DNA from: a virus
DNA length: 58,410 nt
Virus record (IMG/VR): IMGVR_UViG_3300036790_000260
Span: 1-58,410 of that record
Reading direction: 5' to 3' (one strand)
In this document: positions 4,151 to 58,410 of the stretch, in pieces
Layout: every line of letters starts with the position of its first letter
Numbering within the stretch: position 1 is the stretch's first letter
Notes under the pieces: generated by a model
The model's input: only the letters and a program-made list of their open reading frames with translations
Told to the model about the DNA's origin: nothing
Database searches by the model: none
Program-made: the position numbers and the translations under genes

Positions 4151-5580
4151 GCCCGACGATGAAAGTCCCGACCGACTCAGCCGGGATCATGGAACTGCTC
4201 AACGACGAGAAGGCGCTCCAGGCGCGGTTCACCGAGCAGGCGGTGAAGAACGGCGACACCAAGGAATTCCTCGACGCCTACGCCAAGATGTACGTCAAGA
4301 ACAACGCCGGCGCCGTCGACGAAGTCCGCGACCAGGTCCAGTCCGTGATCTTCGATCTCGTGCGCGACAACGGCGCCAAGCGCGGCCCCAAGCTCGGCGT
4401 CAGCATGGGCAACGGCGGCCCCGAACTCACCGTCGACGGACAGGCCCGCGTCTCCAAGGGCCGCGGCGCCGTCTACAACAAGGCCTCGGCCGGCGCGCAG
4501 CTCGAACGGGCGTACAAGCCCGTCGACCGGTTCAACTCGGTCGGCGAATACTGCAAGGCGATCTTCGAGCTGCGGTCGCCGTCCACGCGCTCGGACCGCG
4601 AGGAGATCATCCGGAAGCTCGACAACGTCCGGACGTTCCAGAACTCGTTCTCCTCCGAAGAGCCCGGCGCCGGCGGCTTCCTCATCCCGGAGATCATGCG
4701 GTCCGAGCTGTTCCAGCTCGCCCTCGAGGAGTCGATCGTCCGCAACCGGGCGACCGTCATCCCCATGTCCACGCTGCGCGTCCCGATCCCCACCGTCGAC
4801 GACACCTCCCACGCCACCAGCGTGTTCGGCGGCATCGTCTTCTACTGGACCGAAGAAGCAGCCGCGATGACCGAGTCGCAGGCCACGTTCGGCCGCGTCA
4901 CCCTCGATGCCAAGAAGTTGACAGGGTTCTTTAAAGTCCCGGCCGAGCTCCTCGACGACGCACCCGCGTTCGGCGCCTGGTTCGACGAGCGCGTCCCCGC
5001 CGGCCTCGCATGGTTCGAAGACATCTCGTTCATGACCGAGACCGGCGCGGGAACCCCGCAGGGGTTCATCAACTGCCCCGCGTCCATCGCCGTCACGAAG
5101 CAGTCCGGGCAGACCACCGGCACCATCGTGTGGGAGAACATCGTCGGCATGTACTCCCGCATGCTCCCCACGTCGCTCAAGAACGCCGTGTGGATCTGCT
5201 CCATCGACACCTTCCCTCAGTTGGCCACGATGGCGCTGTCGGTGGGTACCGGCGGCGGACCGGTCTGGATCGGCGGCTGGTCGCAGCCCGGCTCCGAGAT
5301 GCCCCCGATGACGATCCTCGGGCGCCCGGTGATCTTCACCGAGAAGTGCCCGGCCCTCAGCACGACCGGAGACATCAACTTCGTCGACCTCTCCTACTAC
5401 CTCATCGGCGACCGCCAGCAGGTGCGAGTCGACTCCAGTGAGCACTTCCTCTTCCAGAATAACCAAGTTGCTTATCGTTTGATCAGTCGCGTCGACGGCC
5501 GTCCGTGGCTGAACAGCGCTCTGACCCCGCACAACAACGGACCCTCTTTGAGTCCGTTCGTTCAATTGCAGACTCGGTAA
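4147..5580 (+). CDS. Major capsid protein, HK97 fold
   Basis: This 477-residue protein starts at ATG 4147, four bases into the protease stop. The first ~150 residues are charged and helical, as expected of a delta domain removed by the prohead protease. From ~165 it has the features of HK97-type capsid proteins: GAGGFLIPEIMRSELFQLAL, the RVPIPTVDD strand, VTLDAKKLTGFFKVPAELL, GAGTPQGFIN, and the late loop WSQPGSEMPPMTILGRPVIF. It would build the icosahedral shell. Its place after portal and protease supports the call. Confidence 0.93.
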   Translation: MSPTMKVPTDSAGIMELLNDEKALQARFTEQAVKNGDTKEFLDAYAKMYVKNNAGAVDEVRDQVQSVIFDLVRDNGAKRGPKLGVSMGNGGPELTVDGQARVSKGRGAVYNKASAGAQLERAYKPVDRFNSVGEYCKAIFELRSPSTRSDREEIIRKLDNVRTFQNSFSSEEPGAGGFLIPEIMRSELFQLALEESIVRNRATVIPMSTLRVPIPTVDDTSHATSVFGGIVFYWTEEAAAMTESQATFGRVTLDAKKLTGFFKVPAELLDDAPAFGAWFDERVPAGLAWFEDISFMTETGAGTPQGFINCPASIAVTKQSGQTTGTIVWENIVGMYSRMLPTSLKNAVWICSIDTFPQLATMALSVGTGGGPVWIGGWSQPGSEMPPMTILGRPVIFTEKCPALSTTGDINFVDLSYYLIGDRQQVRVDSSEHFLFQNNQVAYRLISRVDGRPWLNSALTPHNNGPSLSPFVQLQTR

Positions 5581-5631
5581 GCCGCTTTCGCGCTCCGAAA
5601 CCCGCGCGGAATCTTCTAGAAGGAGTAGAGC

Positions 5632-5919
5632 GTGAAGCAGCGGCAGATCCAGATGGCCGAGATCACCCCGAAGCTGGTGCGGGAGGCCTTGAAGAAGGGC
5701 GAGCGCATCATCGTGTTCGAGGGTGGTGAGCCGGTGGCGCTGGTGAGCGGGGCGTCGGCGGAGCTCGCGCGGCACCGGGATTTCTTCGTGCACTACCCGC
5801 ATGACGCGTCGGAGTGCTTCGGCACCTGTTGGCGGCACGACGGTGCGGCGGAGAAGGACGGTGCGGCGTCTCCCGACGCCGTGGCCGAGGAGCTCGTGCC
5901 GGAGGGTGCGGGCGTCTGA
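5632..5919 (+). CDS. Small protein after capsid gene, weak Phd/YefM resemblance
   Basis: This 95-residue protein starts at GTG 5632 behind a strong AGAAGGAG site. The middle reads KKGERIIVFEGGEPVALVSG, which recalls the central strand pair of Phd/YefM antitoxins, and is followed by a Cys/His-containing stretch (FGTCWRHD) and an acidic Ala-rich tail. In this position in other actinophages there is often an unassigned small head protein. I do not know its function; the antitoxin similarity is only a pattern impression. Confidence 0.6.
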   Translation: MKQRQIQMAEITPKLVREALKKGERIIVFEGGEPVALVSGASAELARHRDFFVHYPHDASECFGTCWRHDGAAEKDGAASPDAVAEELVPEGAGV

Positions 5920-6037
5920 TCCAGCTAGGGGCGCGCCCCGGCCGTAATCCTGCGGTTGGGCCACACGCCCCGAGTGAGCAACCCGGCAGTGACGCCCCGG
6001 GCCAAGACCAGAGTCGAGTTCCAGGAGGTGGCCAGCC

Positions 6038-6463
6038 ATGGCTGGTATGAGGGGTCTAGGGCGCGCCTACGACGTCGCGCCGATCGCGAGCGGGCAGTAC
6101 ATCAGCATGCGCCAGTGCTCGGCGGTGGCTTTCATCTGCACCGGCGCCGACACGTTCACTGTCCGGGAGGCGAAGACCAGTTCCGGCGGCAGCGTGCAGA
6201 ACCTGGGAAACGTGATCTCGCAGTACTACCAGAACACGGCCACGAACGGCACTGCCGGGTGGACGACGGTGACGCAGGCTGCCGGATTCGCGGTGACGCA
6301 GGCGGGCGCGTACACGACGGTCATCGAGGTGCTGGCGCCGATGCTGGACGACGGCTTCGACTACGTCTACTGCCATGCCGCGTCGGCGGGCCTGGTGATC
6401 GCGCTGCCGCATGATCTGACGGTGCAGCGCAAGCCGGACAACCTCACGATCCTGGTGGCGTGA
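6038..6463 (+). CDS. Probable head-associated protein, beta-rich
   Basis: This 141-residue protein starts at ATG 6038, seven bases after an excellent AGGAGGTGG site. It is rich in Thr, Ala and Val with alternating hydrophobic residues and no charged coiled coil, as in capsid decoration or other virion surface proteins. The preceding 118 bases (5920-6037) hold no gene but contain a perfect palindrome, GGGGCGCGCCCC (5928-5939). Location between capsid and neck genes supports a virion role; the exact role is unknown. Confidence 0.7.
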   Translation: MAGMRGLGRAYDVAPIASGQYISMRQCSAVAFICTGADTFTVREAKTSSGGSVQNLGNVISQYYQNTATNGTAGWTTVTQAAGFAVTQAGAYTTVIEVLAPMLDDGFDYVYCHAASAGLVIALPHDLTVQRKPDNLTILVA

Positions 6464-6464
6464 A

Positions 6465-6944
6465 ATGCCCGACTTCATTCAGGGTTCGCAGCTGCGCAGG
6501 CTGGCGCTCGGCAGTCAGGTCATCAACGGGCCGTTCACGCCGCCGGCTTCCGGGTCGTCTTCGACGCTGTTCACCGTGGCGGGAGGGGCGGTGCTCGTCA
6601 CCTCTCTCCTGGGCAGGGTGACGACGGCGCTTTCGGGCACGACGGGTGCGATCTCGCTCGGGTCGCATCCCACCGTGGGTACCGATGAGCCTGCGGGTAT
6701 CGCGACCGCCGGGGTGGTCGGGGGCGCGGAGATCGGCACGTGGGTCGGTCCGGTCGCCGCGTCCACCGGGTTGGCGGGCGCGCTGACGGCGAACATCGTG
6801 GCGGGCAACACGGTGTATGCCACTGCTCCGTTCGTGGTGAATGCGGGCACGATCGAGGTGAAGACCACAGTGGCGACCATGACGGGCGCTATCACGTGGT
6901 ATCTGACGTATGTTCCGTTGGATACGGGGGCATCTGTCTCGTGA
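6465..6944 (+). CDS. Beta-rich structural protein, paralogue 1
   Basis: This 159-residue protein starts at ATG 6465, two bases after the previous stop. It is a Gly/Thr/Val-rich beta protein without charge clusters. Its segments STLFTVAGGAVLVTSLLG and ITWYLTYVPLDTGA recur in the next gene as ETLFTVSGGNVLLKALIA and VRWTLVYVALDPGA, so the two are paralogues. A capsid decoration or fibre-base role is likely from position and composition, but no family name is certain. Confidence 0.7.
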   Translation: MPDFIQGSQLRRLALGSQVINGPFTPPASGSSSTLFTVAGGAVLVTSLLGRVTTALSGTTGAISLGSHPTVGTDEPAGIATAGVVGGAEIGTWVGPVAASTGLAGALTANIVAGNTVYATAPFVVNAGTIEVKTTVATMTGAITWYLTYVPLDTGASVS

Positions 6945-12301: not shown

Positions 12302-13261
12302 GTGGCCAAATCGAGTGGTCTCGGCGATTTCCTGTGGCTCTCCGGCGTCGACCTGTCCTCCGACACCATGTCCGGGAAGGTCTCCGGCAGCGTGGCGCTG
12401 CTGGACTTCACCGGCATCAACAACCTCGCGTTCGTACGCCAGGGCGGCCAGCGCTCGGCCAGCATCGACTGGGTGTCCTACTTCGATAGCGCCGTCTCCC
12501 ACCCGGTCCTGTCCGCGCTGCCCACCAGCGACGTCCTGGGCACGTACGTGACGAACCTCGGCTCGGCCACCCCGGCGATCGGGAACCCGGCGTTCTGCAT
12601 GCAGGGCCTGCAGTTGAACTACGACCCCACCAGAACGACGGCCGGCGCGCTGACGTTCGCGGTCACGGCCGACTCCGACAACTACGGCGGCGAGTGGGGC
12701 GCGCTGCTCACGCCGGGGGCGCGCACGGACAGCGCGGCCACGAACGGCGCGAGCTTCGACGGCGCGGGCGGCTTCACCACTCCTGCGGTGCCGTTGACGA
12801 CGGTGCCGGTGCAGAACACCTCCGCGCTGCCCTACACGGTGGTGGTCAGCGCGGGCACGGTGACGCTGGTGACGGTCAACGGGGTGACGGTCGGCGCCGG
12901 CGACGGCACCTACACGGTTCCGGCGGGCGCGTCGATCGCGATCACTTTCTCGGTGGCTCCGACGTGGACGTGGACGGCCGCGCCCGGCGCGTTCGGGGTG
13001 CAGGCGTATCTGCACGTGCTCGGTTTCACCGGGACGGATGCGACGGTCACGGTGCAGCACTCGGCGGACAACTCGACGTGGGCGACGCTGGTCGCGTTCG
13101 CGCAGACCACCTCCGGGCCCGGCTACCAGCGGGTGGCTACCGGCAACACGGCGACGGTCAACCGGTATACGCGCGCCATCACGACGACGTCGGGCGGCTT
13201 CAGCAGCCTCAAGTTCGGCGTGGCGCTGGTCAGGAATCCGATCGCGGCCCAGGTGTTCTAG
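12302..13261 (+). CDS. Major tail (tube) protein with extra beta domains
   Basis: This 319-residue protein starts at GTG 12302 after AAAGGAGG. The first ~140 residues (SGVDLSSDTMSGKVSGSVALLDFTGINNLAF) have the beta-strand pattern of tube proteins from phiC31-like and other actinophages. Residues ~165-220 form a Val/Thr-rich inserted strand unit, and the C-terminal ~100 residues (HVLGFTGTDATVTVQHSAD, then RVATGNTATVNRYTRAI) look like an Ig-like or carbohydrate-binding sandwich. Such decorations sit on the outside of the tail tube. Position before the chaperone and tape-measure genes supports the call. Confidence 0.75.
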   Translation: MAKSSGLGDFLWLSGVDLSSDTMSGKVSGSVALLDFTGINNLAFVRQGGQRSASIDWVSYFDSAVSHPVLSALPTSDVLGTYVTNLGSATPAIGNPAFCMQGLQLNYDPTRTTAGALTFAVTADSDNYGGEWGALLTPGARTDSAATNGASFDGAGGFTTPAVPLTTVPVQNTSALPYTVVVSAGTVTLVTVNGVTVGAGDGTYTVPAGASIAITFSVAPTWTWTAAPGAFGVQAYLHVLGFTGTDATVTVQHSADNSTWATLVAFAQTTSGPGYQRVATGNTATVNRYTRAITTTSGGFSSLKFGVALVRNPIAAQVF

Positions 13262-13278
13262 GGAGAGGTGGTGGCGTG

Positions 13279-13734
13279 ATGCAGGAGCTTCCGATGGTGC
13301 AGAGCGTCGACGGCGGCCGCCTGGTGCCGCGGGGGCGCCCGTCGCAGTGGCAGACGTTCTCCGTGCACCGGCCGCTCGCGACGCACTGGCGGCCGGCTAC
13401 GTGCGAGGAGGTGGCGTGCCCGGATTTCCTGCGCGGCTGGCGGCTGCGGGTGGAGGGCCTGGATCCGAGGGACGTGCATCTCGCGACGCACTGCGGGCGC
13501 TCCTTTCAGCGTGTCGAGGGCGGCCCCGGTGAGACGTGGCTGATCTTCAAGGCGGGTCAGGCGTGCTTCCAGGCGGCGCGGCACGTGAAGCAGCTGGAGC
13601 GCCCGGAGCTGTACGTGCTCCGCGGTGGGGATTGGCGGCAGTTGGGGGAGCCGCAGAAGCTCTCGCCGGAGTCGTGGCTCGACTCGTTCGGGGAGAACCA
13701 GGAAAAACTCCACGACGCTAAAGAAAGAGGCTGA
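13279..13734 (+). CDS. Conserved hypothetical tail-region protein
   Basis: This 151-residue protein is read from ATG 13279; GTG 13276 immediately before is also possible behind GGGAGAGG. It is rich in Trp, Arg and His (WQTFSVHRPLATHWRPATC, FLRGWRLRVEGLDP) with five cysteines, and ends in a charged helix (SWLDSFGENQEKLHDAKERG). Proteins with this W/H/C pattern are seen in actinophage tail regions but have no assigned role. Confidence 0.65.
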   Translation: MQELPMVQSVDGGRLVPRGRPSQWQTFSVHRPLATHWRPATCEEVACPDFLRGWRLRVEGLDPRDVHLATHCGRSFQRVEGGPGETWLIFKAGQACFQAARHVKQLERPELYVLRGGDWRQLGEPQKLSPESWLDSFGENQEKLHDAKERG

Positions 13735-13739
13735 CACCA

Positions 13740-14147
13740 ATGGCAAAAGCCAGCGGAATTTCATGGACCACGTTCAGCGTGGACGATGCCACGAACACGC
13801 AGCAGGCGATCGTGGACGACATCACCGACGTGAAGATCGCCACACCGCGCGCGGTCCAGGACATCACGGGCATGGACAAGGCCGCGATCCAGCGGCTGCT
13901 CCTGCTCGCGGACCTCACCCTGACGATGAACGGCGTGTTCAACGGCTCCGCGAACATGAGCCACGCGGTCTTCAGCACGATCTCATCCACCTCGGTCAGC
14001 CGGCTGGTGACGATGGTCGTCAACGCCAAGACCCTCGCGCCGACCGTCGTGCTCACCGACTACCCGCTGACCCGCGCGACGGGTGGCGCGCTGACGTGGT
14101 CGGTGCCCGGGTCGCTCAGCTCGGGCACCGCGCCCCTGTGGTCGTAA
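13740..14147 (+). CDS. Second tail tube-like or tail-associated protein
   Basis: This 135-residue protein starts at ATG 13740, shortly after AAAGAGG. Strand-rich sequence with an N-terminal SWTTFSVDDATN motif, a middle helix (MDKAAIQRLLLLADLTLTMNG) and a C-terminal SRLVTMVVNAKTLAPTVVLTDY region resembles the tube-fold proteins that some actinophages encode in addition to the main tail protein. It lies between the tail tube and chaperone genes. The role is inferred. Confidence 0.55.
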   Translation: MAKASGISWTTFSVDDATNTQQAIVDDITDVKIATPRAVQDITGMDKAAIQRLLLLADLTLTMNGVFNGSANMSHAVFSTISSTSVSRLVTMVVNAKTLAPTVVLTDYPLTRATGGALTWSVPGSLSSGTAPLWS

Positions 14148-14157
14148 GGAGTCTCGT

Positions 14158-14565
14158 ATGGGCGGTTTCCGGCTGGAGCCGAAGCAGTACAACCTGACCT
14201 TCGAGGACCCGGCGCTCGACCGCCTCGAGGTGAAGCTCACCGGGATGAGCATGGACGAGGCGCTCGACTACGACCTCGCGCGCCTGGCCGCGTGGGACGG
14301 CGTCGAGCGCAACGCGGAGCGCACCCGCGCGGTCGCGGAGACCATCGCCGCGCACCTGGTGAGCTGGAGCCTGGTCGAGGAGGACGGCTCGCCGACGCCG
14401 CTCACGGCGAAGGGCCTGCTCTCGCACGACCCGGAGGTCCAGCACGCCATCGCTCTCGCGTACGCGCTCGCCGTACGGGGGGTACCGGTCCCTTTGGGCA
14501 GCGGATCGACGAATGGCGCGGGGGTGGACTCACTGCCGACGGAGACGTTGCCCGCGAGCCCGTAG
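14158..14565 (+). CDS. Tail assembly chaperone, short form (gpG-like)
   Basis: This 135-residue acidic protein starts at ATG 14158 after AAGGAGTC. It is helical with conserved-looking stretches (LTGMSMDEALDYDLARLAAW and AERTRAVAETIAAHLVSWSL). Length and position directly before the tape-measure gene fit the upstream product of the lambda G/GT-type chaperone pair, which coats the tape measure during tail assembly. A slippery heptamer at 14490-14496 lets a fraction of ribosomes move into the -1 frame and make the longer form. Confidence 0.75.
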   Translation: MGGFRLEPKQYNLTFEDPALDRLEVKLTGMSMDEALDYDLARLAAWDGVERNAERTRAVAETIAAHLVSWSLVEEDGSPTPLTAKGLLSHDPEVQHAIALAYALAVRGVPVPLGSGSTNGAGVDSLPTETLPASP

Positions 14566-14708
14566 AGCACCGCAACGCGGCGCTGATGCTGGCGCTGTGC
14601 GACCGGTTCCACAAGCTGCCCAGCGAGATCCTGGCCGAGGACGCGTCGCTGTTCCAGATGCTCGCTATCGTCGAGAGGGGGAAACCTCAGCATGGCGAAT
14701 ATTATTGA
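14158..14708 (+). CDS. Tail assembly chaperone, frameshifted long form (gpGT-like)
   Basis: This is the predicted 183-residue fusion: 113 residues in the first frame, a -1 shift at C CCT TTG (14490-14496), then 70 residues in the overlapping frame starting GQRIDEWRGG and ending GKPQHGEYY at 14706-14708. The downstream part (ALMLALCDRFHKLPSEILAE) is the usual T-domain look: short helices with an LP-x-E/xIL motif. The second frame has no good start of its own, and its stop lies 17 bases inside the tape-measure gene, both expected of a programmed frameshift. Confidence 0.75.
14490..14496 (+). promoter_or_regulatory. Programmed -1 frameshift site CCCTTTG
   Basis: The heptamer reads GT-C CCT TTG in the upstream frame, a perfect X-XXY-YYZ pattern. 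Slipping back one base moves the ribosome into exactly the frame that stays open to 14708. GC-rich sequence follows and could fold as a stimulator. Confidence 0.75.
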
Positions 14709-17556
14709 GATCCGGGTCAAAACGGTCAACGATACCGCCGAGGGGCTCGACGCCGCCCGGGCGGACGCGGCTGCGGCGGCGGAGGAGATCGCGGCGAGTT
14801 TCCAGGCGGCGGGCGCGGACGGCGGGGCGCGGTACGCGACTGGGCTGCGGGATGCGACCGCGGATCTCGGGACGGTGGTGGCGGCGCAGATCGCGCCGGA
14901 GATCGAGGACACGATCGGGGATTCCGGGCGCGCCTCCGGGGCCGCGTTCACTTCGGCGTTCTCCGGGGAGCTCGCCTCCGGGCTGAGCAGCACGGGGGTG
15001 TTCGGCGGGTCGGTCGGCGACATGATCGGGAAGGAGGGGGATCCGGCGGGCAGGGAGTTCAGCGCCGCGTTCAGCCAGTCCGCGAAGGACGGCCTGCTCA
15101 GCTCGACGCTCGCCGCGGCGCTCGCGCCTGAGGGCGACGTCGGCGACCAGATGGTGCAGGACGCGGAGAAGACCGGGAAGAAAGCCGGCGAGGACGCGGG
15201 CAACGCGGCCGGAGACGGGATGGCGCCGTTGATGCTGGCGGCGATCGGGGGCGTCGCGGCGCTCGGCGCGCCCCTGCTGCTGACCGGGCTCGGAGGGGCG
15301 TTCGTCGGGGTCGCGGCGATGGCGTTGAAGTCGAACGCGGTGATCGCGGCGGACTACACGCAGCTCGGGAAGAACGCCGAGGCGGCCATCAAGCAGGCCG
15401 CCGCGCCGCTGGCGGGGGACCTGAACGTGGGGCTCGACACGCTCGACGGCACCGTGAAGGCGTTGCAGCCGCAGCTCGACAGCCTGTTCGCGAACGTGGG
15501 GCCGGATATCACGCAGGTCGCGGACGGGGTGTCCGCGTTCGCCACCGGGGTGCTGCCGGGGGTGTCGCGCGCTTTGGGTTCGAGCCAGGTGATCGTGCGG
15601 GACTTCTCGGCGTCCCTCGGGCCGCTGGGTTCGAACGTGGGCTCGTTCTTCACCGGGCTGTCCACGGACGCGTACGCGACCGGCGCGGGGATGCAGTCGG
15701 CGTTCGGGGTGATCGGGAACGCCGTCTCGACCGTCGGGAGCGTGCTGGGTTCGGCGTCGACCGCGATCAGCGCGGACCTCCTGGCGATCGACCCGGCGAT
15801 CAACGGGCTGCTCACCGGGGTGCGGGCGATCGCGAGCCCGGCGACGATCGGCGCGATCGGCGGCGCGTTCGCCGCGATGAAGCTCGACCCCGCGGTGGGC
15901 AAAGGCCTGCAGTCGGTGTCGGACGGGTTCCTGAACATCGCCGCGAAAGCCGACGGCGCCGAAGGTGTCCTCGGGAAGGTCGGGGGCGCGGCCGAATCCG
16001 CGTCGGGCAGCTTCAGCACGATGGCGGACGTCATGGGCGGCCCGGCGGGCATCGCGATCGGCGCCGCCATCGGGCTGGCTTCCGGGTTGGCGGGGTCGCT
16101 GTTCAACGCGGCCAAAGCGTCGGACGCGCTCACCTTGAGCCAGCAGGGGCTGACGCAGGCGGTGGCGCAGGACCAGGGCACCGCCGGGGCTTCCACGGCC
16201 GCGTATGTGGCGCAGACGTTCGCGGCGGACGGCCTGTCGAAGAGCGCGGCGGCCGCGGGCGTGTCGACGACGACGTGGACGCAGGCGGTGCTCGGCAGTT
16301 CGAGCGCGCAGCAGAAGGTGCTGGACGCGGTCGACAAGACGAACCAGGCGACGGTGGACCAGACGTATTCCACGAACCAGGCGACGGCGAGCACCGGGAA
16401 GTTCTCCGACGAGCAGAAGGACGCCGCGGGGTTCGTGGACGGCACGGTGATCTCCACGAACCGGTTGACGACGCAGAACCAGCAGCTCGTGAACTCGCTC
16501 AACGCGCAGACCAAGCAGGTGGCGGACGCGATCTCGGCGCAGACCACCTATCAGAAGGCGATGGGCGCGCTGAGCACGACGACGGAGCTGTTCAACGCGT
16601 CGCTGACCGCGGGTGAGCGGGCGCTGGTGGCCAGTGCGCAGGCGTCGGCGTTGACGACGGTCGCGAACCTGAACCTGGGGAGCTCGAACTCGACGGTCAG
16701 CCAGTCGCTCGACAAGACGCTGATCGCGTATCAGGAGACCTCCTCGCAGGCCAGTGCCTACGGCAGTGTGCTGCAGTCGCTGAACGGGACGGCGCTGTCG
16801 GCGGCGCAGGCGCAGAACACGCTGGCGTCGGACATGGTGTCGGCGAAGAAGACGTTCGATGCGAACTCTGATTCGCTGAAGTTGAACACGGCGGCGGGCG
16901 TCTCGGACCGGCAGGCTCTGGTGGCGGCGTCTCAGGCGATCGTCGCGATGGGTGTGGCGCAGTTCCAGTCGAGCGGCAGTATGAACGACGCGAACAAGAC
17001 GATCCAGCAGCAGATCACCGCGTACGTGGCGGCGACGGGCGCGACGGGGAAGGCGAAGCAGGCGATCCTGTCCTACCTGGAGTCGATCACGCAGATCCCG
17101 CCGAACGTGTCGACGACGGTGCACGCGAACACGGCGAACGCCCTGGCGGAGATCAACCAGGTCAACGGGGCGCTGCAGAACCTGATGCAGAGCTCCATCC
17201 CGGGCGCGGCAGGGCTCGCCGGGGTGGAGATCGCGCGCGCGAACCGTGCGTCGGGCGGCCCGGTGGCGGCGGCGTTCGCGGCGCAGGGCGGTTCCCAGTA
17301 CGGCGGCCCCACGATGATCAACGAGCAGGGTCCGGAGCTGGTGAACCTGCCGAACGGGTCGCAGGTCATGCCGGCCGCGAACACCGCGTCGATGCTCGCG
17401 GGGTCCGGGTTCGGCGGCTTCGGGGGCGCCCAGCGGATCGAGTTGGAGTGGGTGGGCGGTGACGGGCCGTTGTTCGACGCGTTGCGGGCCGGGATCCGGG
17501 CCCGGGCCGGCGGCGGCGCCAACTCGGTGCAGCGCGCGCTCGGGCAGGTGTCCTGA
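14692..17556 (+). CDS. Tape measure protein
   Basis: This 954-residue protein starts at ATG 14692. It is Ala/Gly/Ser/Gln-rich and mostly helical, with an N-terminal coiled coil (EGLDAARADAAAAAEEIAAS), a hydrophobic span near residues 178-210 (LMLAAIGGVAALGAPLLLTG) and another near 440-470 (GIAIGAAIGLASGLAGSLF). Tape measures run through the tail tube, set its length and are injected with the DNA; the hydrophobic spans may enter the host membrane. The C-terminus (GGSQYGGPTMINEQGPELVN) carries the common 'GPELV-LP-GS-V' ending. It follows the chaperones and shares one base with the next gene. Confidence 0.92.
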   Translation: MANIIEIRVKTVNDTAEGLDAARADAAAAAEEIAASFQAAGADGGARYATGLRDATADLGTVVAAQIAPEIEDTIGDSGRASGAAFTSAFSGELASGLSSTGVFGGSVGDMIGKEGDPAGREFSAAFSQSAKDGLLSSTLAAALAPEGDVGDQMVQDAEKTGKKAGEDAGNAAGDGMAPLMLAAIGGVAALGAPLLLTGLGGAFVGVAAMALKSNAVIAADYTQLGKNAEAAIKQAAAPLAGDLNVGLDTLDGTVKALQPQLDSLFANVGPDITQVADGVSAFATGVLPGVSRALGSSQVIVRDFSASLGPLGSNVGSFFTGLSTDAYATGAGMQSAFGVIGNAVSTVGSVLGSASTAISADLLAIDPAINGLLTGVRAIASPATIGAIGGAFAAMKLDPAVGKGLQSVSDGFLNIAAKADGAEGVLGKVGGAAESASGSFSTMADVMGGPAGIAIGAAIGLASGLAGSLFNAAKASDALTLSQQGLTQAVAQDQGTAGASTAAYVAQTFAADGLSKSAAAAGVSTTTWTQAVLGSSSAQQKVLDAVDKTNQATVDQTYSTNQATASTGKFSDEQKDAAGFVDGTVISTNRLTTQNQQLVNSLNAQTKQVADAISAQTTYQKAMGALSTTTELFNASLTAGERALVASAQASALTTVANLNLGSSNSTVSQSLDKTLIAYQETSSQASAYGSVLQSLNGTALSAAQAQNTLASDMVSAKKTFDANSDSLKLNTAAGVSDRQALVAASQAIVAMGVAQFQSSGSMNDANKTIQQQITAYVAATGATGKAKQAILSYLESITQIPPNVSTTVHANTANALAEINQVNGALQNLMQSSIPGAAGLAGVEIARANRASGGPVAAAFAAQGGSQYGGPTMINEQGPELVNLPNGSQVMPAANTASMLAGSGFGGFGGAQRIELEWVGGDGPLFDALRAGIRARAGGGANSVQRALGQVS

Positions 17557-20500
17557 TGGCGGTGTTCCCGCAGGCGCCGCTCGGCGTGATGGTCGAACTG
17601 TATTTGGGGTCCTGGACTGACGTTTCGACGTACGTGTACCAGCGCGACCTGATCAGCATCACCACCGGCCGGCCGCCGCAGGCGTCGCAGGCGTCTCCGG
17701 CGCAGGCGACGCTGACGTTGAACCAGCGCGACGGCCGGTTCTCGGTGAACAACCCGCTCGGCCCCTACTACGGGACGCTGGTCCGCAACACGCCGCTGCG
17801 CCTGTCGATACCGAACTCGCTGCTGCCGTCGCCGTCGAACGCGACCTACCTGCGGCTCGAGGACGACACCGTGTCCTATGCGTCGTGCCCGGCGGCGTCC
17901 CGGATCGAGCTGACCGCGTCGTTCGAGGTGCGGATCGACGTCTCGATCCACGGCTACGGGCCGCTCGTGCTCGCCGGGATCTGGCAGGCGTCCGCGTCGG
18001 TGCCGCAGCAGCGGTCCTGGGCGCTCGTACTCACCCCGACCGGCCAGCTGGGCATGTACCTGTCCCCCGACGGCACCGGGCTCGCACAGGAGGCCAGGTC
18101 GGCGTACTCCGACCCCAACGCGCCGCTGCCACTCGGGCGCCTGGTGATCCGCGCCACGGTGAACACCGCCAACGGCGTCGTCGCGTTCTCCTACGCCCCC
18201 GCCGGGCAGATCAACGCCACTGCCTTCACGCCGCTCGGCACGACCGTCGTGTACAGCCTGACCGGGGCGTTCAACCTTTTCGCGTCCACCACCCAGCCGC
18301 TCACCGTCGGCTACGCGGGCGGCCTCGAATACGACGCCGGCGTCAGCGGGGCGCCGTTCGAGAACGCATGGCTCGGCACCCTCGGTTCGATCCACGACTT
18401 CGAGCTGCGGTCCAGCATCGGCGGCACGATCGTCGCGCAGCCCGCGTTCAACACCCAGACCGCCGGCGCCACGACCTGGACGGACTCGCCGGGCAACCCG
18501 TGGTCCCTGAACGGCAGCGCGGCACTGTCGAACCGGTCCTTCCGGTTCCACGGCGAGCTCGCGCAGATGCCGAAAGCCGCAGACCCGTCGCAGACCGATA
18601 TCTACACCCAGGCCATGGCCTCCGGGGTGCTGCGCCGGCTGCAGCAGCAGCAGAGCCCGCTGAACTCGGCGATGTACCGGGCCGTGACGAACCAGGCGTC
18701 CGCCGCGGCGCTCGCCGCACCCGCGCTGGCGTATTGGCCGTGCGAGGACGGCATCGGGGCGACGCAGATCGGGTCGGCGATCTCCGGGGTGGCGGCGATG
18801 ACGATCAGCGGGACGCCGCAACTGTCGAGCAGCACCGTTTTCGCGTGTTCGGACGCGCTGCCCGTGCTCGCGTCGAGCCGCTGGTCCGGGAACGTCACCG
18901 CACCCGGGGTGAGCTGGACGCAGAACCTGCTCGGGCTGCTCCTGATGGTTCCGTCCGCGGGGGAGACGAACGGCGCGCTGATCGGATCGGTGTTCACCAC
19001 CGGGACGTTCGCGAGGATCGATCTGGTATATACCAGCGCGTCCTCCGGGTCGGTGGGCTTCAACTGCTACAACGCGGGCGGCACGCTGGTGGGCAGCAAC
19101 AGCGTGCAGTACGAGCTCGCGGGCGCGGTCACGGTCGGGGTGAACGGGTATCCGGCGCTGATCGAGCTGAACGTCACGACCAGCGGCGCGAACGTGGTGT
19201 GCACGATCACCGCGCGGGTTCCGCTCAGCGGGGAGGTGACGTCCGCGAACGCGTCCGCGACCGGCACCGTCGGCGCCGTCACGCGGGTGATGGTCAACTC
19301 GAACGGCACGCTCGCGAACAGCGTCGTCGGGCATGTGTTCGTCGCGAACGCGGCCGACAACAGCGTCCTGCTCACGGGCCCCGGCTACGGGCCGCTCGGT
19401 GCGTGGCTCGGGGAGCCGGCCGGTTCCAGGGTGCAGCGGCTGTGCATCGAGGAGGGAATCGGGCAGCGGATCTACGGGCACCCCGGGCTCACGGCGCCGA
19501 TGGGCACGCAGACCCTGCAGACACTCGCGCAGCTGCTGCAGGAGTGCGAGACCACCGACCGCGGGATGATGAACGAACCGGTCTCCAGCATCGGGATCGG
19601 CTACCGGACGCTCACGTCCCTGTACAGCCAGGCCGCGACGGCCAGCGCGTCGTTCACGTCTGCCGCGGTGGCCGCGGGGTTCTCCTCGATCGTGGACGAC
19701 CTGCTGACGATCAACGATGTGACCGCGACGAACATCGACGGGTCCTCCGCCCGCCAATACCTGCCTTCCGGGCCGATGTCGGTGCTGGCCCCCCCGGCGG
19801 GGATCGGCCGCGTGGATACGCAGGTGCAGGTGAACGCGGCGTCCGACACGCAGCTGCAGGGCGTGGCGCAGTGGATCCTGCACACCACGACCGATCCGCA
19901 CGACCGGTTCCCGGCGATCCCGTTCGACATGGCCAGGTCGCAGACCCCGGCGGCGATCCCGCTGCTGAAGGTCGGGGACGTCCTGGCGGTCACGTCGCCG
20001 CCGTCGTGGATCCAGTACGACGAGATCGACCAGGTGTGCGCCGGGTTCACCGAGACTCTGGGGCCGTTCGGGGTGTGGCAGATCGGGGTGAACGCCATCC
20101 CCGCGTACCCGTACGCGATCTTCTCGGTCGCGCCGGCCGTGTCGGGTGCGGCGTCGTTCGCTGGCGGGGGTCCGTTCGCGACGCATGTGGACACGGACGG
20201 TACGACGCTGACGTCGAACGTCAACTCCACCGCGGGCGCCTTGTCGTTCACGACGGCGGCGGTGGGGATGCCGGTGTGGACGACGAACCCGGTCGACTTC
20301 CCGTTCGACGTCGGGATCGGCGGTGAGCGGATCACCGTGGTCGGGCCCGGGGCGTGCCTGGGGACGGATCCGTTCCAGGCCGGCGGGATCACGGACTACA
20401 GCGGGCAGTCGGCGGCGGTCTCCGTGTCGGGGACGCACGGCGCGCCGCCGGTCGCGAACGGCTACTCGACCAACGCGATCCTCGTCGCGCCGGCCGGGTC

Positions 20501-22486: not shown

Positions 22487-22929
22487 GCACGGCCGGCCGT
22501 AAGGCCCTGATCGCGGCGTCGATCTTCGGTTTGTGTGACGGGATGATGTCGATCCTCGGTGTGATCTTCACGTTGCGGTCGCATCCGGCGCTGGTGCCGT
22601 GGTCGGCCGCGATCGGCGGCGTCGGCGCGGGGCTGTCGATGGCGGTCGGGCAGTACGTGTCCGCGGACAACGACGACGGGGTTCCGGCGTGCCTGATGCT
22701 CGGGCTCGCCACGAGCGTCGGGTCGGTGCTGCCCGCGCTGCCTTATCTGGGGCTGCGCGGGGCTCCGGCGATCTGGAGCACGGGCGGGATCTGCTTGGTG
22801 CTGGTGTGCGTCGTGGCCGCGCTGCGCGCCGGCGGCCGGTGGCGGGGTGGGGCGCTGGTGTTCGGGTTGCTGGCCGGGGTGTTCGGTGTGACGCTCGGGT
22901 GCGCTCTGGCCGCTCCGGCGGGTGCGTGA
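22483..22929 (+). CDS. VIT1/CCC1-like small membrane protein
   Basis: This 148-residue protein starts at GTG 22483 in a GTGA overlap. It has four hydrophobic segments. Segments 1-2 carry [14 protein letters not shown] and [15 protein letters not shown], which follow the VIT1/CCC1 family patterns (D-G-x-x-S/T-x-x-G and S-M-A-x-G-[EQ]-Y-V-S), and [15 protein letters not shown] follows its later P-x-L-P-Y motif. The cytoplasmic metal-binding domain of plant and yeast members is missing. Known members move iron or manganese ions; here a holin or membrane-targeting role is just as possible. Confidence 0.7.
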
Positions 22930-25529: not shown

Positions 25530-25745
25530 CTACAGGTATTTGCGTACTTCTTCGATGCGCACGCGGTAGGTGGCTCCGAACTTCACTGCGCCCAGCTCAC
25601 GTTGCTTGATCATGCGGTAGACGGTCATCTTCGACACGCGCATGATCGTTGCGACTTCCTGCACCGTGAGCAGCTGCACGTCGCTCAGGTCGGCGCGCGG
25701 GGCCGTGATGGCGGCGTCTCTGCGTGCGGTCGTGTGTTCCGTCAT
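25530..25745 (-). CDS. Small HTH protein, excisionase/BldC type
   Basis: This 71-residue protein (start at 25745) is almost all one MerR-like/HTH_17 domain: LLTVQEVATIMRVSKMTVYRM, recognition turn, then GAVKFGATYRVRIEEVRKYL as the wing. It is similar in layout to excisionases and to small conserved actinobacterial regulators such as BldC relatives. With no integrase in the window, a regulatory role (in the minus-strand accessory operon or in host genes) is more likely than excision. It lies 50 bases downstream of the GH26 gene. Confidence 0.75.
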   Translation of the reverse strand: MTEHTTARRDAAITAPRADLSDVQLLTVQEVATIMRVSKMTVYRMIKQRELGAVKFGATYRVRIEEVRKYL

Positions 25746-25795: not shown

Positions 25796-26806
25796 TCAGG
25801 ACGGCTGCGCGGTGTGCAGCTTTGCGGCGCCGGCCCGGTATGCGGCGAGCGCCGCCGGGTCGTCTTGGAGGGTCCAGTCGGCGCGTTTGCCCTGCGCGGT
25901 GCCGTAGTCGAAATACACCATCCCGATCACCCGCGGGTCGGCGCCGAGCCCGGCGAGCATCGCGGTGACCCACCCGGCTTTCTGCGGACCCTGCTCGGCG
26001 CCGGTCTCCGTGATCACCACCGGGTCCGCGGTCAGCGCGGCCACCTTCTCCTCGGTCGGCCCGAACAGGCTCGACCAGTCGTCCGCCCCCAGCGTGGAAC
26101 CGGTCCAGTACCCGCTGATCCCGACCCAGTCCACATACCCTGCGCCGGGCCACCAGTCGGCCAGGTCCACCGCCGGGACCGGGTTGACCACGTTGGGGGC
26201 CCACACCCAGATCACCTCGTGCGCGCCGGCGGCGGCGAACAGGTCGTGGATGTGGCGCCACGCGGCGACGAACTGCGCGCCGGTCGCGTTCTGGGCGCCT
26301 CCGGCGCCCCAGGACATCCACGGGCCGTTGAACTCGTGGCCGAAGTCGAGCGCGACCGGGATCCCGGTGGCGGCGATCTGCTTGGCGAACGCGCGGATGT
26401 ACAGGTCGTCGCGGCCCTGGGCGATCGCGGTGAGCGTGGTGTCGACGGGCTGCCAGGAGTCGAGGAGCAGCGCGTGCGCCCGCCACGCCGCGGCCGCGTC
26501 GGCGGTGTCGAAGGGGGTCCCGAAGTTCTGGAACACCTCGAGGATGTCCGGGGTGGTGCCGGTGGCGGCCGCGTAGGCGCCAAGGCCTGGGGCCGCGGCC
26601 GGGAGGGACACGCCGAGGTATTTGCCCGCGGGGTGCTCGTAGGCGCCGAGCGGGATCGGCGTGGCGGCCGCGGTAGGCGCCGTGGGGCCGAGCGGCGTGG
26701 TGGCTGCGCCTTGGGCTTTGTGCACGAGGGGCGGTGCGGGGGGTCTGGCGTGGCAGCCGGTGCACAGCACCAGCGCGGCGAGCAAGACCATGATCAGGCG
26801 TTTCAC
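25796..26806 (-). CDS. GH26-family glycoside hydrolase lipoprotein (beta-mannanase-like)
   Basis: This 336-residue protein starts at GTG 26806 after AGGAG. A lipoprotein signal (MKRLIMVLLAALVLCTGC, likely modified Cys18) is followed by an Ala/Pro/Thr linker to ~50 and a TIM-barrel domain. GH26 hallmarks are clear: DFGHEFNGPWMSW with acid/base Glu158, VIWVWAPN, and VVITETGA with nucleophile Glu267. GH26 enzymes cut beta-mannans or mixed beta-glucans. Its GTGA overlap with the upstream GT2 synthase suggests it trims or releases the polymer made by that enzyme. Outer-face membrane location is expected. Confidence 0.85.
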   Translation of the reverse strand: MKRLIMVLLAALVLCTGCHARPPAPPLVHKAQGAATTPLGPTAPTAAATPIPLGAYEHPAGKYLGVSLPAAAPGLGAYAAATGTTPDILEVFQNFGTPFDTADAAAAWRAHALLLDSWQPVDTTLTAIAQGRDDLYIRAFAKQIAATGIPVALDFGHEFNGPWMSWGAGGAQNATGAQFVAAWRHIHDLFAAAGAHEVIWVWAPNVVNPVPAVDLADWWPGAGYVDWVGISGYWTGSTLGADDWSSLFGPTEEKVAALTADPVVITETGAEQGPQKAGWVTAMLAGLGADPRVIGMVYFDYGTAQGKRADWTLQDDPAALAAYRAGAAKLHTAQPS

Positions 26807-28191
26807 CGGTGTTCTCCTGCTTCGATCGCTTCGGCGTGTGCGGGGGGCAGCGGGGTGGGCCGGTCGAAGATCTCGATGCGTTCGCGGGTGCCCCATCCGG
26901 TGTTGCGGCAGGTCGCGATGCCGTACCAGCGCATCGCGCGCAGCACCGTGTAGGACCAGGCGACCGCGAGCGGCGCGAGGAGCCACGTCAGGATGCGGGA
27001 TGCGGCGGGCTCGTCGGTGCGGGTGACGGCGAGGTACCGGGCGGTGAAGCCGTAGCCGATGCCGGACGCGATGATCCCCGAGGCGATCCACGGGACCGGG
27101 TGGCCTTCGGCCGGTGCGAGGGCGAACAGGTCGAGCAGCACGGCCATGGACGCGGTGAGCTGGACCCAGTTCAGGAAGTTCGACCAGTACGCGTACCCGG
27201 ACAGCCGCAGGTACCGGAACCGCCACAGGGACCGGATCGTGGAGCCGCGCATCCACCGGCAGAACTGGCGCACGTGGTGCGACAGGTTGTTCGGCATCGC
27301 GACCAGCACGATGGCGTGCGGGTTCTGCACGGTCCGGCCGCGCATCAGGGCGTAGAGGGTGAGCATCGAGTCGTCGCTGAAGTGCACGGGCCGGCCGAGG
27401 AACGTCTCGCTGAGGTAGCCGTCGATGTTGTCGCGCACCACGGCGAACCGGTAGGCGGCCAGCGGCCCGGAGTTCACGGTGACGGCTCCGAGCCGGGATT
27501 GGGAGGCGCGGCCGACGAGCTGGATGGATACGAACCAGAGGTCGAGGATGCGGGCGAGGAGGTTGTCGCGGTCGTTCTCGGCCATCACGAGGCCCGCGAC
27601 GGACTGGACGCGGGGTGAGGCGAACGGCAGGAGCAGCTGCTCGACCGCATGGGGGTCCAGGACGCCGTCGGAGTCGACGGTGAGGTAGATGTCGGCGTGA
27701 TGGGCGCGGGCGACGTGGCCGTGGACCAGGCGCTTGCCCTTCCATGCGACGGTTTCCCAGATGCCGCGGACACCGGCGCGGTCGCAGGCGTGCAGGAACC
27801 ATTCGGCGACGTCGGTGTAGTCGGCGAGGGGGTCGTCGGAGTCGTTGTCGACGACGTGGATGATGTCGGGGCGCCTGGTCTGGTTGATGAGGGATGCGAG
27901 GGCGCGCTGGAGGATCGCGGGGTCTTCGTTGCGGACGGGGACGGGGATCAGGATGGTGAGGGTGTCGAGGTAGCGGCGTTGCCGGGCGGTGGGGTTGTAG
28001 CGGGGTTGGCCGGCGAGTAGCGCGGTCTGCCAGACGAGGAGGAGGTAGGCGGCGAGGTAGTCGATTTCGCGGGGGTTGGTGAGGAGGTTGGTGTGGGCGA
28101 TGGTCTGGGTGTGGAGGTAGCCCCAGCCGGTGAGGGCGATCAGGGCGGTGATGGTGATGATGGTGTCGGCGCGGCGCGAGTAGGTGGTCAC
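26803..28191 (-). CDS. Processive family-2 glycosyltransferase, hyaluronan-synthase-like
   Basis: This 462-residue protein starts at GTG 28191 (GTGA overlap with a tiny membrane peptide). N-terminal membrane segments at ~10-28 and ~43-60 precede a GT-A domain: VRNED, HVVDNDSDD (Asp115/117), TVDSDG (Asp173/175), VNSGPLAAYR, FSDDS (Asp273/274) and QFCRW (Gln309, Arg312, Trp313). DxD plus QxxRW marks processive beta-glycan synthases such as HasA, NodC and cellulose synthases. Several C-terminal spans (about 335-420) follow. It should polymerise a sugar nucleotide on the inner face and pass the chain through the membrane. The product sugar cannot be read from sequence. Confidence 0.85.
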   Translation of the reverse strand: MTTYSRRADTIITITALIALTGWGYLHTQTIAHTNLLTNPREIDYLAAYLLLVWQTALLAGQPRYNPTARQRRYLDTLTILIPVPVRNEDPAILQRALASLINQTRRPDIIHVVDNDSDDPLADYTDVAEWFLHACDRAGVRGIWETVAWKGKRLVHGHVARAHHADIYLTVDSDGVLDPHAVEQLLLPFASPRVQSVAGLVMAENDRDNLLARILDLWFVSIQLVGRASQSRLGAVTVNSGPLAAYRFAVVRDNIDGYLSETFLGRPVHFSDDSMLTLYALMRGRTVQNPHAIVLVAMPNNLSHHVRQFCRWMRGSTIRSLWRFRYLRLSGYAYWSNFLNWVQLTASMAVLLDLFALAPAEGHPVPWIASGIIASGIGYGFTARYLAVTRTDEPAASRILTWLLAPLAVAWSYTVLRAMRWYGIATCRNTGWGTRERIEIFDRPTPLPPAHAEAIEAGEHR

Positions 28192-28286
28192 GACGGGTCT
28201 CCGACGGGACGGTTGCGGCGGTAGGAGAGGCGGATGCCGAGCGCGGTCAGAGCGATCAGCGTCCAGGATGCGCACAGGATGAGCAC
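28188..28286 (-). CDS. Tiny membrane peptide upstream of glycan synthase
   Basis: A 32-residue reading frame starts at GTG 28286 after AGGGGGACCC and stops at 28188, overlapping the synthase start by four bases. It is one hydrophobic helix (LILCASWTLIALTALGIRL) followed by a basic, Pro-containing tail. Small partner peptides are known for some glycan synthases. The reading frame is real in the sequence; expression is inferred from overlap and ribosome-binding site. Confidence 0.5.
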   Translation of the reverse strand: MLILCASWTLIALTALGIRLSYRRNRPVGDPS

Positions 28287-28349: not shown

Positions 28350-28931
28350 TCAGCACTTCTCCCAGCCGCCGGTGAAGTCGGAGCACATTTCGGCGGACGC
28401 GATGTTGTAGCCGCCGCTGGCCGAGCCCGACTGGGTGACCGGCTGGCCGTCCCAGTCCACGACGGTCGTGCACGACACGTGGCCTGATCCGGATAGCTGG
28501 GCGGTGACGTTGTAGTACTGGGCGTCGGGGTCGAGCGGCATCGTCTTGGTGAAGGGGAGGCTGTCGGCGGAGTCGTCGGTGCCTTCGGGGCCGTAGGTGA
28601 TGTCGATGCCGTCGGGTGCGTTGCCGGTGCACGCGAAGGTGACTTGGGCGACTGCGGCCGGGGTGGTCGCGGGGGGCGCCGCGGGGGCCGGGGCGGCGGG
28701 GGTCGGTGCGGTGTAGGTGGCCGAGGCGGGGGCGCTGGGGGTGGGGATGGTCGCGGTGGCCGTCGGCGGGGCGCTGGTCGTGCTGGGGGTGTTGCCGCCG
28801 GATGCCACGGCCGACACCACGATGATCGCGAACGTGCCGCAGACGAGGCCGAGGATGATTTTGCGTGCGGTGTGCTTCTTCGGTGCCTGCGGGGGCTGGT
28901 ACGGGGCGCGGGTGTAGTCGGGGGTGTTCAT
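28350..28931 (-). CDS. MmpS-like membrane-anchored secreted protein
   Basis: This 193-residue protein starts at ATG 28931. A cytosolic tail rich in Pro/Gln is followed by one membrane span (KIILGLVCGTFAIIVVSAV), a Ser/Thr/Pro/Ala linker (about 50-105) and a C-terminal beta domain with four cysteines (VTFACTG, GIDITYGPEG, SLPFTKTMPLDP, HVSCTTVVDWDGQPV, ending ...WEKC). This strand order is that of MmpS-like actinobacterial proteins, which work at the outer face of the membrane, in mycobacteria with lipid exporters. It heads the run of minus-strand envelope genes and may belong with them. Confidence 0.7.
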   Translation of the reverse strand: MNTPDYTRAPYQPPQAPKKHTARKIILGLVCGTFAIIVVSAVASGGNTPSTTSAPPTATATIPTPSAPASATYTAPTPAAPAPAAPPATTPAAVAQVTFACTGNAPDGIDITYGPEGTDDSADSLPFTKTMPLDPDAQYYNVTAQLSGSGHVSCTTVVDWDGQPVTQSGSASGGYNIASAEMCSDFTGGWEKC

Positions 28932-28996: not shown

Positions 28997-29413
28997 TTAC
29001 GGCGCGGGGGTGGTGAGTTCGGCCCAGTAGACGCCGCGGTCGCCGGTGACGGTGGCTCCGTGGCGGCTGGCGGTCTTGTGGATGATGGCGTAGCCGAGTC
29101 CGCCGTTCTCGCCGCGGGCCCGGCGGATGCGGGGCGCGGGCCCGGCGTCGATGACGGTGAGGCGCAGGGTCTGTCCGTAGTCGGCGAGCTCGATGATGAT
29201 CTCGACGGAGCCGCGGCCGCGGGAGCAGGAGTGGAGCACGGAGTTGGTGACGAGTTCGGAGAGGATGAGGACGGCGTTGTCGGTGCGGGGGTCGCCGTGG
29301 AGGTAGCGGGCCGTGATGTGGCGGGTGAGGGCGGGGGCGTTGGTGTCGGCGGGGACGGCGAAGGTGGTGCGGTGGGTGGTGGTGGTGATGGGGGGTGTGT
29401 CGGTGACGGTCAC
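28997..29413 (-). CDS. RsbW-like ATP-binding protein (HATPase)
   Basis: This 138-residue protein is read from GTG 29413, seven bases after GGAAGG. It has the GHKL kinase-like order: VLILSELVTNSVLHS (N box with the Asn), LRLTVIDAGPAP (G1), ENGGLGYAIIHKTASR (G2) and a final strand YWAELTTP. Stand-alone single-domain proteins of this type are abundant in Streptomyces, where they act as anti-sigma factors/kinases or pair with XRE and DUF397 proteins. In the phage it could sequester a host sigma factor. It is divergent from a GntR-type gene. Confidence 0.8.
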   Translation of the reverse strand: MTVTDTPPITTTTHRTTFAVPADTNAPALTRHITARYLHGDPRTDNAVLILSELVTNSVLHSCSRGRGSVEIIIELADYGQTLRLTVIDAGPAPRIRRARGENGGLGYAIIHKTASRHGATVTGDRGVYWAELTTPAP

Positions 29414-29420
29414 GGCGACC

Positions 29421-29450
29421 TTCCGTTCGGCGTGTGCCAGGTGGCATACT
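29421..29450 (+). promoter_or_regulatory. Promoter with internal palindrome for the GntR-type gene
   Basis: TTCCGT (29421-29426) and CATACT (29445-29450) are 18 bases apart. Between and overlapping them is TGCCA-GG-TGGCA (29435-29446), a good operator candidate. Autoregulation by the GntR-type protein encoded just downstream is inferred. Confidence 0.45.
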
Positions 29451-29502
29451 CCAGGTGTAGTCCACACTCCACCGACACCGCAATCCCCCGCCGGAGGAAT
29501 CC

Positions 29503-41904: not shown

Positions 41905-42195
41905 GTGGCCCACCTCACCGAACAAGACCGCGCCACCCTCGCCGAACGGTTCATCGACGTCCCCTGGTGCGTCTACGCCCAAGGCCTAGACCAGGTCTTC
42001 TACTGCGAACACGACGACACCTTCATCCGGCATTCACAAACATGCGCGGACCCCTTCGACGCCGACCGCGCCCTCGCGTTCGCCACGCAGCTCGCCGCCG
42101 ACGTCGCGGCCGCGCGCACCATCCACGGCGTCACCACCATCCCCGACATCACCGCATACGTCCTCTGGCACGGCATCATCTGGACACGACGATGA
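41905..42195 (+). CDS. Small hypothetical protein
   Basis: This 96-residue protein is read from GTG 41905, seven bases after GGAGG; GTG 41899 overlaps the ribosome-binding site and is less likely. It has a Cys/His set (WCVYAQGLDQVFYCEHDD, HSQTC). Not recognised. Confidence 0.55.
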   Translation: MAHLTEQDRATLAERFIDVPWCVYAQGLDQVFYCEHDDTFIRHSQTCADPFDADRALAFATQLAADVAAARTIHGVTTIPDITAYVLWHGIIWTRR

Positions 42196-58145: not shown

Positions 58146-58410
58146 ATGACCACCACCGCAGACGCCCAGCAGATCACCGAGACCTACAAGATGCTCACCC
58201 CCGCGCCCGGCCGCTCGATGCACCTCCTGCCGATCTACCAGATGTTCGACTGGTCGCTCGACCGGTTCCACGCCGCAATCCGGCACCTCAACGCCACCGG
58301 GGGCGCCTTCATCGAGCCGGAGCCGAAGCTGCGCTCCCTGACCGACACGGACCACATGGTGTCGCTGAAGATCGGCGGCGAGTGGAAGCACTCCATAGCG
58401 ATCGACTACT
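58146..58410 (+). CDS. 88-residue phage protein, N-terminal part (continues at 1)
   Basis: ATG 58146 follows AAGGAG (58134-58139). 88 codons are in this end and the TGA is completed at 112-114 after joining the termini. The protein reads LLPIYQMFDWSLDRFHAAIR in its first half and has a polar beta end. Not recognised. It is the only gene between the palindromic promoter and the terminator at 132-160, so it is a monocistronic unit, perhaps under the XRE repressor. Confidence 0.75.
   Translation, partial: MTTTADAQQITETYKMLTPAPGRSMHLLPIYQMFDWSLDRFHAAIRHLNATGGAFIEPEPKLRSLTDTDHMVSLKIGGEWKHSIAIDY
58299..58410. repeat. Terminal repeat, right copy (112 bp)
   Basis: Identical to 1-112; see the left copy. 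Confidence 0.95.

Follow-up and report, generated by a model that had tools for sequence, protein, structure and literature searches.

Gene organization of the locus

The window, that is, the whole stretch of 58,410 nucleotides that was analysed, is an IMG/VR virus record containing portal, major head protein and terminase genes. The genome, that of an actinobacterial phage, looks complete, because its ends share an exact direct terminal repeat of 112 bp (1–112 = 58299–58410), and no integrase of the tyrosine or serine type (PF00589, PF00239) was detected in it. The first-pass annotation placed three overlapping minus-strand genes at 25796–28286, transcribed against the late genes, and this arrangement was borne out: all three open reading frames are intact, the late genes are on the plus strand, and both junctions of the trio (mini-ORF/GT and GT/GH26) are 4-bp GTGA overlaps (Table 1). 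The terminators thought to close the block did not hold up, since the scan gave three sites against 1.7 ± 1.3 in shuffled sequences, which is not above chance, and the terminator predicted at the end of the block sits on the plus strand. The HATPase_c_2 gene may be a member of the operon, as judged from the short gaps only. A search for additional viral relatives of wLIP gave none. Elsewhere in the window, ARAGORN called a 102-base tRNA-Pro (22824–22925) that lies within an open reading frame and is probably false, and a second short DNA match (42072–42115) was discarded as what looks like a chance GC-rich match.

Table 1. Cassette genes and their same-strand neighbours in the window
Feature	Position	Strand	Evidence and remarks
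HATPase_c_2 protein, anti-sigma-like ATP-binding; opens the same-strand run	28997..29467	-	PF13581, E=9e-9
wLIP, single-TM exported protein, 193 aa, directly upstream of the cassette	28350..28931	-	Counterpart at the equal place in phage G001 (L003), 67% identical
Mini-ORF, 32 aa single-pass membrane peptide (VLILCASWTLIALTALGIRLSYRRNRPVGDPS)	28188..28286	-	GTG start, AGGGGG upstream, one hydrophobic helix, no LxTG
GT2 polysaccharide synthase (GT), HAS/NodC-like, 462 aa, ~5 membrane helices	26803..28191	-	Families, sequence and fold matches
GH26 beta-glycanase, CtLic26A-like, predicted exported, probable lipoprotein, 336 aa	25796..26806	-	Pfam, sequence and fold matches, catalytic Glu
Excisionase-type HTH protein, 71 aa, downstream of the cassette, membership uncertain	25530..25745	-	TIGR01764, PF12728

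The GT2 synthase

The GT carries the motifs DSD (173–175), SDDS (272–275) and QFCRW (309–313) and scores above the Pfam cut-offs for the GT2 families PF00535, PF13641 and PF13632 (E=1e-12 to 5e-11). DSD, DD and RW are invariant across 33 aligned GT sequences, and only the R-W part of QxxRW is family-wide, because the Q is replaced by M in many relatives. The structure model (pLDDT 89.3, pTM 0.88) and hydropathy agree on long hydrophobic helices, two N-terminal and three C-terminal. The protein thus shows the domain, the DxD, DD and QxxRW motifs and the membrane helices of a processive GT2 polysaccharide synthase, with a Q that is not conserved in the family, and its original description as a HAS-like GT2 with DxD and QxxRW is confirmed. 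The closest solved proteins, by sequence as well as by Foldseek, are the Chlorella-virus and Xenopus hyaluronan synthases (E=2e-16 by sequence to the former; best Foldseek match 7sp7, E=4e-19). The alignments for the structure models were built without rows from the annotated phage collection.

Narrower assignments were rejected. The best NCBIfam profile is NodC (E=2e-34), and the equivalog cut-off of this chitooligosaccharide synthase (TIGR04242) was missed, with 119 against 550 bits; that of PgaC/IcaA (TIGR03937) was missed too, with 37 against 422 bits. A Class I-NR hyaluronan synthase proper requires 2+4 helices where the GT has 2+3, and the GT has SDDS in place of GDDR. As far as sequence and model go, the GT would work like a HAS-type synthase, yet it fails the tests for HAS proper, NodC and PgaC. 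A single-sequence scan of viral contigs with the GT found no relative, as did an initial scan of genome contigs; the relatives in viral contigs were found by alignment-based searches. In three of the phage loci (L013, L014, L015) the GT is extended at its C-terminus by an additional hydrophobic segment and a long tail rich in Ser, Thr and Pro.

The mini-peptide

Most loci with a HAS-like GT contain a short open reading frame, encoding one hydrophobic helix and a basic, R-rich tail, whose stop lies at or close to the start of the GT, and in the relatives the two usually share a 4-base overlap. Such an open reading frame is absent ahead of all four CslA-like GTs checked (L003, L016, L017, L018); therefore, the mini-peptide goes with the HAS-like GT. 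By sequence, it is a real family accompanying this type of synthase, of which the window has a short form. The tiny membrane partner of the first-pass annotation is accordingly a membrane peptide conserved with the GT, and a partner role is supported as a reading of this conservation. One idea is that the peptide supplies the sixth helix of HAS, which the helix count fits.

The commonest form, L(A/P)xTG-TM-RxxFRRGR, resembles a sortase substrate. Most mini-peptides of GT-only relatives have the LxxTG motif, the TM segment and the basic tail, while those of GH26-paired HAS-like loci are short or without LxTG. The window peptide was rejected as an LPxTG/LAxTG sortase substrate, having the TM and basic tail and no LxTG. 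LxTG occurs in 0 of 13 GH26-paired loci against 60 of 76 GH26-free ones by regular expression, with three more recognised by eye (Fisher p=5e-8); after correction for kinship, 3–4 independent pairs are left and the exclusion is not significant (sign test, p about 0.5). It is a pattern only, because the GH26 loci fall in few clades. At two loci, one in a Pseudonocardia plasmid and one in Actinomycetospora, a class E sortase gene adjoins an LxTG mini-peptide and a HAS-like GT (L163:3705-4854, L053:4748-5383).

The GH26 hydrolase

The third gene product belongs to GH26 (PF02156; score 44.8 bits, cut-off 20.2). Its best match by sequence is CtLic26A (E=2e-30), which is also the best Foldseek match of its model (pLDDT 85.8; TM 0.86–0.88 to the target), and the predicted fold is a TIM barrel with both the acid/base and the nucleophile Glu. 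These residues, E158 (HEFNG) and E267 (ITETG), are invariant in 19 GH26 sequences and align with those of CtLic26A. In the GH26 of two other loci a different residue takes the place of the His that precedes the acid/base Glu (AEANG in L116, SEFNT in L041). The protein has an export signal and a lipobox, LCTGC, that is non-canonical at −3, whereas several relatives have a canonical one. Of the secreted lipoprotein with both catalytic Glu residues that had been proposed, the family, the two residues and the export signal therefore stand, and the lipobox is imperfect.

Recurrence in viruses, chromosomes and plasmids

Of the cassette sought in other phages, the GT–GH26 pair was found, which is present in about a dozen other virus records. 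A HAS-like GT lies directly upstream of GH26 in the window and in L013, L014, L015, L019, L020, L115/L116 and L121, and a CslA/BcsA-like GT takes this place in L003, L016, L017 and L018. Phage GX15bay (L005, MK557849), from mangrove, has a GT2 directly upstream of GH26, of which it carries two genes; further glycosyltransferase and methyltransferase genes form a second run, at 12843–17966 of the same locus. Portal and terminase matches back the phage identity of G000, G002, G003, G004 and G006; these families gave no such support for G001, G005, G007, G008, G009 and G018–G020. In G005 (L016), which may be host DNA, the pair is flanked by a further dehydrogenase and a PMT_2 gene. Integrases are found in several cassette-carrying phages. 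HAS-like GTs stand without GH26 in 76 of 89 loci, so GT function does not, as a rule, require the hydrolase. Our literature search found no publication on phage HAS-like synthases.

In chromosomes, a GH26 of the cassette kind occurs in 119 of 299 Streptomycetaceae genomes (E<=1e-30). Nearly all of the best 30 chromosomal loci have an adjoining CslA-like GT2, and most also a PMT_2 (GT-C) gene; this trio of GT2, GH26 and PMT_2 is found in Streptomycetaceae genomes at L134–L161. The search of host chromosomes for the window trio thus returned a common GT2–GH26 locus, in which the GT is CslA-like and the third gene is PMT_2. No published description of it was found in the literature searched, and the exopolysaccharide locus, present in many Streptomyces genomes, is apparently uncharacterised. 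Because such trios are common in Streptomycetaceae, the cassettes of phages appear to be mobile versions of an exopolysaccharide locus of the host. The HAS-like GT–GH26 pair itself is also present in three genome contigs (L041, L090, L095), the first of which, from Streptomyces, holds the nearest relative of the window GT (62%), with GH26 and a dehydrogenase beside it. A UDP-sugar dehydrogenase, of the Ugd and WecC/Cap5O kinds, lies near the GT in 16 loci and is frequent at chromosomal and plasmid GT-only loci, including Streptomyces plasmids. Plasmid matches to GH26 are distant only. Unlike the Streptomyces loci, HAS-like GTs of Actinomyces (L078, L081, L084–L087, L096) adjoin a polysaccharide deacetylase gene (PF01522).

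Exchange of synthases and selection

Genes common to the window and phage G001 (L003) are wLIP (67%), GH26 (57–60%) and few others, and their GT2s belong to different subfamilies. Judged from these sequences, the synthase was exchanged while GH26 was kept. The GH26 tree has at least four switches of partner GT type, with several branches long and weak. A replacement of another kind is seen in G006 and G007, whose flanks are 99.7% identical over 4.8 kb and 98.7% over 6.8 kb, whereas the stretch comprising the PMT2 C-terminus, GT and GH26 is only ~50–67% identical and has fairly sharp boundaries (L017 ~3000–6600 versus L018). This single phage pair indicates that a divergent allele replaced the cassette in near-identical phages, like a serotype switch. 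Kromp and L008 have in common a ~2-kb peptide and GT unit at 90%, and little else nearby.

The dN/dS ratios of viral GT pairs range from 0.085 to 0.28, as for a gene under purifying selection. The first-pass annotation had allowed that the genes might be a recent host fragment with broken frames in relatives; these ratios, and the open frames of most copies, speak against it. A decaying passenger from the host chromosome, functionless in the phage, is for the same reasons highly improbable. Such an origin would agree with the Streptomyces contig that holds the nearest GT relative and with a window mini-ORF shorter than the common form, but the frames, the 4-bp overlaps and the catalytic residues are all preserved, and the window GH26 groups with other phage GH26s on the tree.

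Proposed function of the cassette

We consider the block to be, on balance, a phage-borne exopolysaccharide cassette that produces a beta-glycan on the surface of the infected host and trims it. The glycan synthase operon carried as cargo in the first-pass annotation is supported to the same extent, as an interpretation, by the recurrent pair, the conserved mini-peptide and the expected predicted folds. The GT2 would assemble host UDP-sugars into a beta-linked polymer at the cytosolic face of the membrane and pass it across through its own channel, with the mini-peptide, translationally coupled just ahead of the GT, as its putative small membrane subunit. GH26, anchored outside, would cut the emerging chain and thereby set its length or clear jammed synthases, a part that BcsZ plays for cellulose. 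We infer the enzyme activities, the polymer, its export and its trimming. The polymer would coat the infected cell, and our best guess at the benefit is the masking of receptors against other phages; this exclusion of rivals is a guess from the replacement pattern and the analogy with viral HAS.

Neither a UDP-sugar dehydrogenase nor a PMT_2 gene lies beside the window cassette, which would therefore depend on host precursors. With respect to the product, the sequence evidence conflicts: a (1,3;1,4)-beta-glucan is indicated by kinship with CtLic26A and by the BcsA-type GT that can take the place of the synthase, whereas a uronic-acid polymer is indicated by kinship with HAS and by the UDP-sugar dehydrogenases near relatives, these neighbours, being those of relatives only, no more than suggestive of an HA-type product.

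The polymer could also be cargo for host fitness, altering hyphal aggregation, attachment or stress survival, with phage blocking secondary. The chromosomal trio is common in Streptomycetaceae, so that the polymer would be of use to a host, and integrases occur in several of the carrier phages. Pellets and aerial growth are shaped by other glycans of Streptomyces (CslA/GlxA, MatAB), according to two reports (PMC11022532, PMC5972031). We nevertheless regard this as rather unlikely, since the window is a complete phage in which no integrase was detected, for which a benefit during infection fits better than long carriage, and since the divergent allele exchange between G006 and G007 fits conflict better than housekeeping. 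Less probable still is that GH26 is an auxiliary metabolic gene digesting plant mannan or mixed glucan for the carbon supply of a soil host, with the GT2 incidental. Soil-virus papers interpret such GH26 genes as carbon degradation, GX15bay with its GT2 and two GH26 genes comes from such a soil-virus-type study (PMC6460857), and GH26 enzymes are mannanases for the most part. However, of the viral cases that match well, most have a processive GT2 next to GH26, as do nearly all of the chromosomal cases sampled. The enzyme appears membrane-anchored rather than freely secreted, and its surroundings showed neither transporters nor other degradative genes. An auxiliary carbon-degradation gene would be a hydrolase uncoupled from a synthase, which the window GH26 is not. 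The carbon-degradation reading of soil-virus GH26 (PMC6460857) fits the GT–GH26 pairing poorly, which suggests that genes so reported may instead belong to polymer-making cassettes. A precedent for such a role is found in Actinoplanes missouriensis, where the GH26 gene of an exopolysaccharide cluster, of the Wzx/Wzy kind, is required for normal sporangia (PMC13390465).

The exopolysaccharide cassette can be taken further, in a speculation that we think has a small chance of being right as a whole. Actinobacterial phages would trade surface-polysaccharide alleles as cassettes, in which the GT2 and its coupled mini-peptide are replaceable and the hydrolase is kept, the serotype-like coats would exclude other phages, and the LxTG peptide of GH26-free cassettes would tie synthase or polymer to the wall via class E sortase. 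If true, peptide and sortase would constitute a previously unknown way to anchor a polysaccharide. The peptide–GT unit is present in Kromp (S. lividans), an isolated phage, which makes the question testable in a laboratory strain.

Comparison with known systems

A synthase with a co-encoded hydrolase in the same host group is known from the CslA–GlxA cellulose system of Streptomyces. Its hydrolase, CslZ, belongs to family GH6. The hydrolase family here is GH26, no GlxA-like oxidase was noticed in the loci examined, and CslA–GlxA is not phage-borne. A gene for a tiny membrane partner next to that of a GT2 synthase recalls PgaC–PgaD and IcaA–IcaD. In these PNAG synthases a small membrane protein has the partner role. 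The window partner differs in having one TM helix and a gene that precedes and overlaps that of the GT, and the GT is far from PgaC/IcaA by profile score, as given above; a tiny conserved membrane peptide family travels with HAS-like synthases.

CtLic26A, the GH26 lichenase of Clostridium thermocellum, matches the window GH26 best by sequence and fold, both Glu included. The window enzyme is 28% identical to it, is encoded beside a synthase and may have a similar substrate. Romboutsia ilealis RiGT2 and S. meliloti BgsA are (1,3;1,4)-beta-glucan synthases, whose product is a lichenase substrate; as QxxRW GT2 synthases they are comparable to the CslA-like GTs of GH26 cassettes, the window GT being HAS-like and not BcsA-like, and the available part of the report mentions no GH26 with them (PMC10374906).

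The closest counterpart is the Class I-NR synthase of Chlorella virus (PBCV-type), CvHAS, a virus-encoded single-domain GT2 synthase that is the best sequence and fold match of the GT. Animal and viral HAS have two N-terminal and four C-terminal helices, and encapsulation of virally infected hosts is listed for HA (PMC10939387). The window GT is 16–19% identical to CvHAS in fold alignments, has SDDS for GDDR and about three C-terminal helices against four, is accompanied by a coupled mini-peptide and GH26, and would act in a bacterial host. A polysaccharide coat made by a virus has its model in the HAS of chloroviruses, and the window cassette is a candidate counterpart from a bacterial virus, recurrent in phages and equipped with its own hydrolase.
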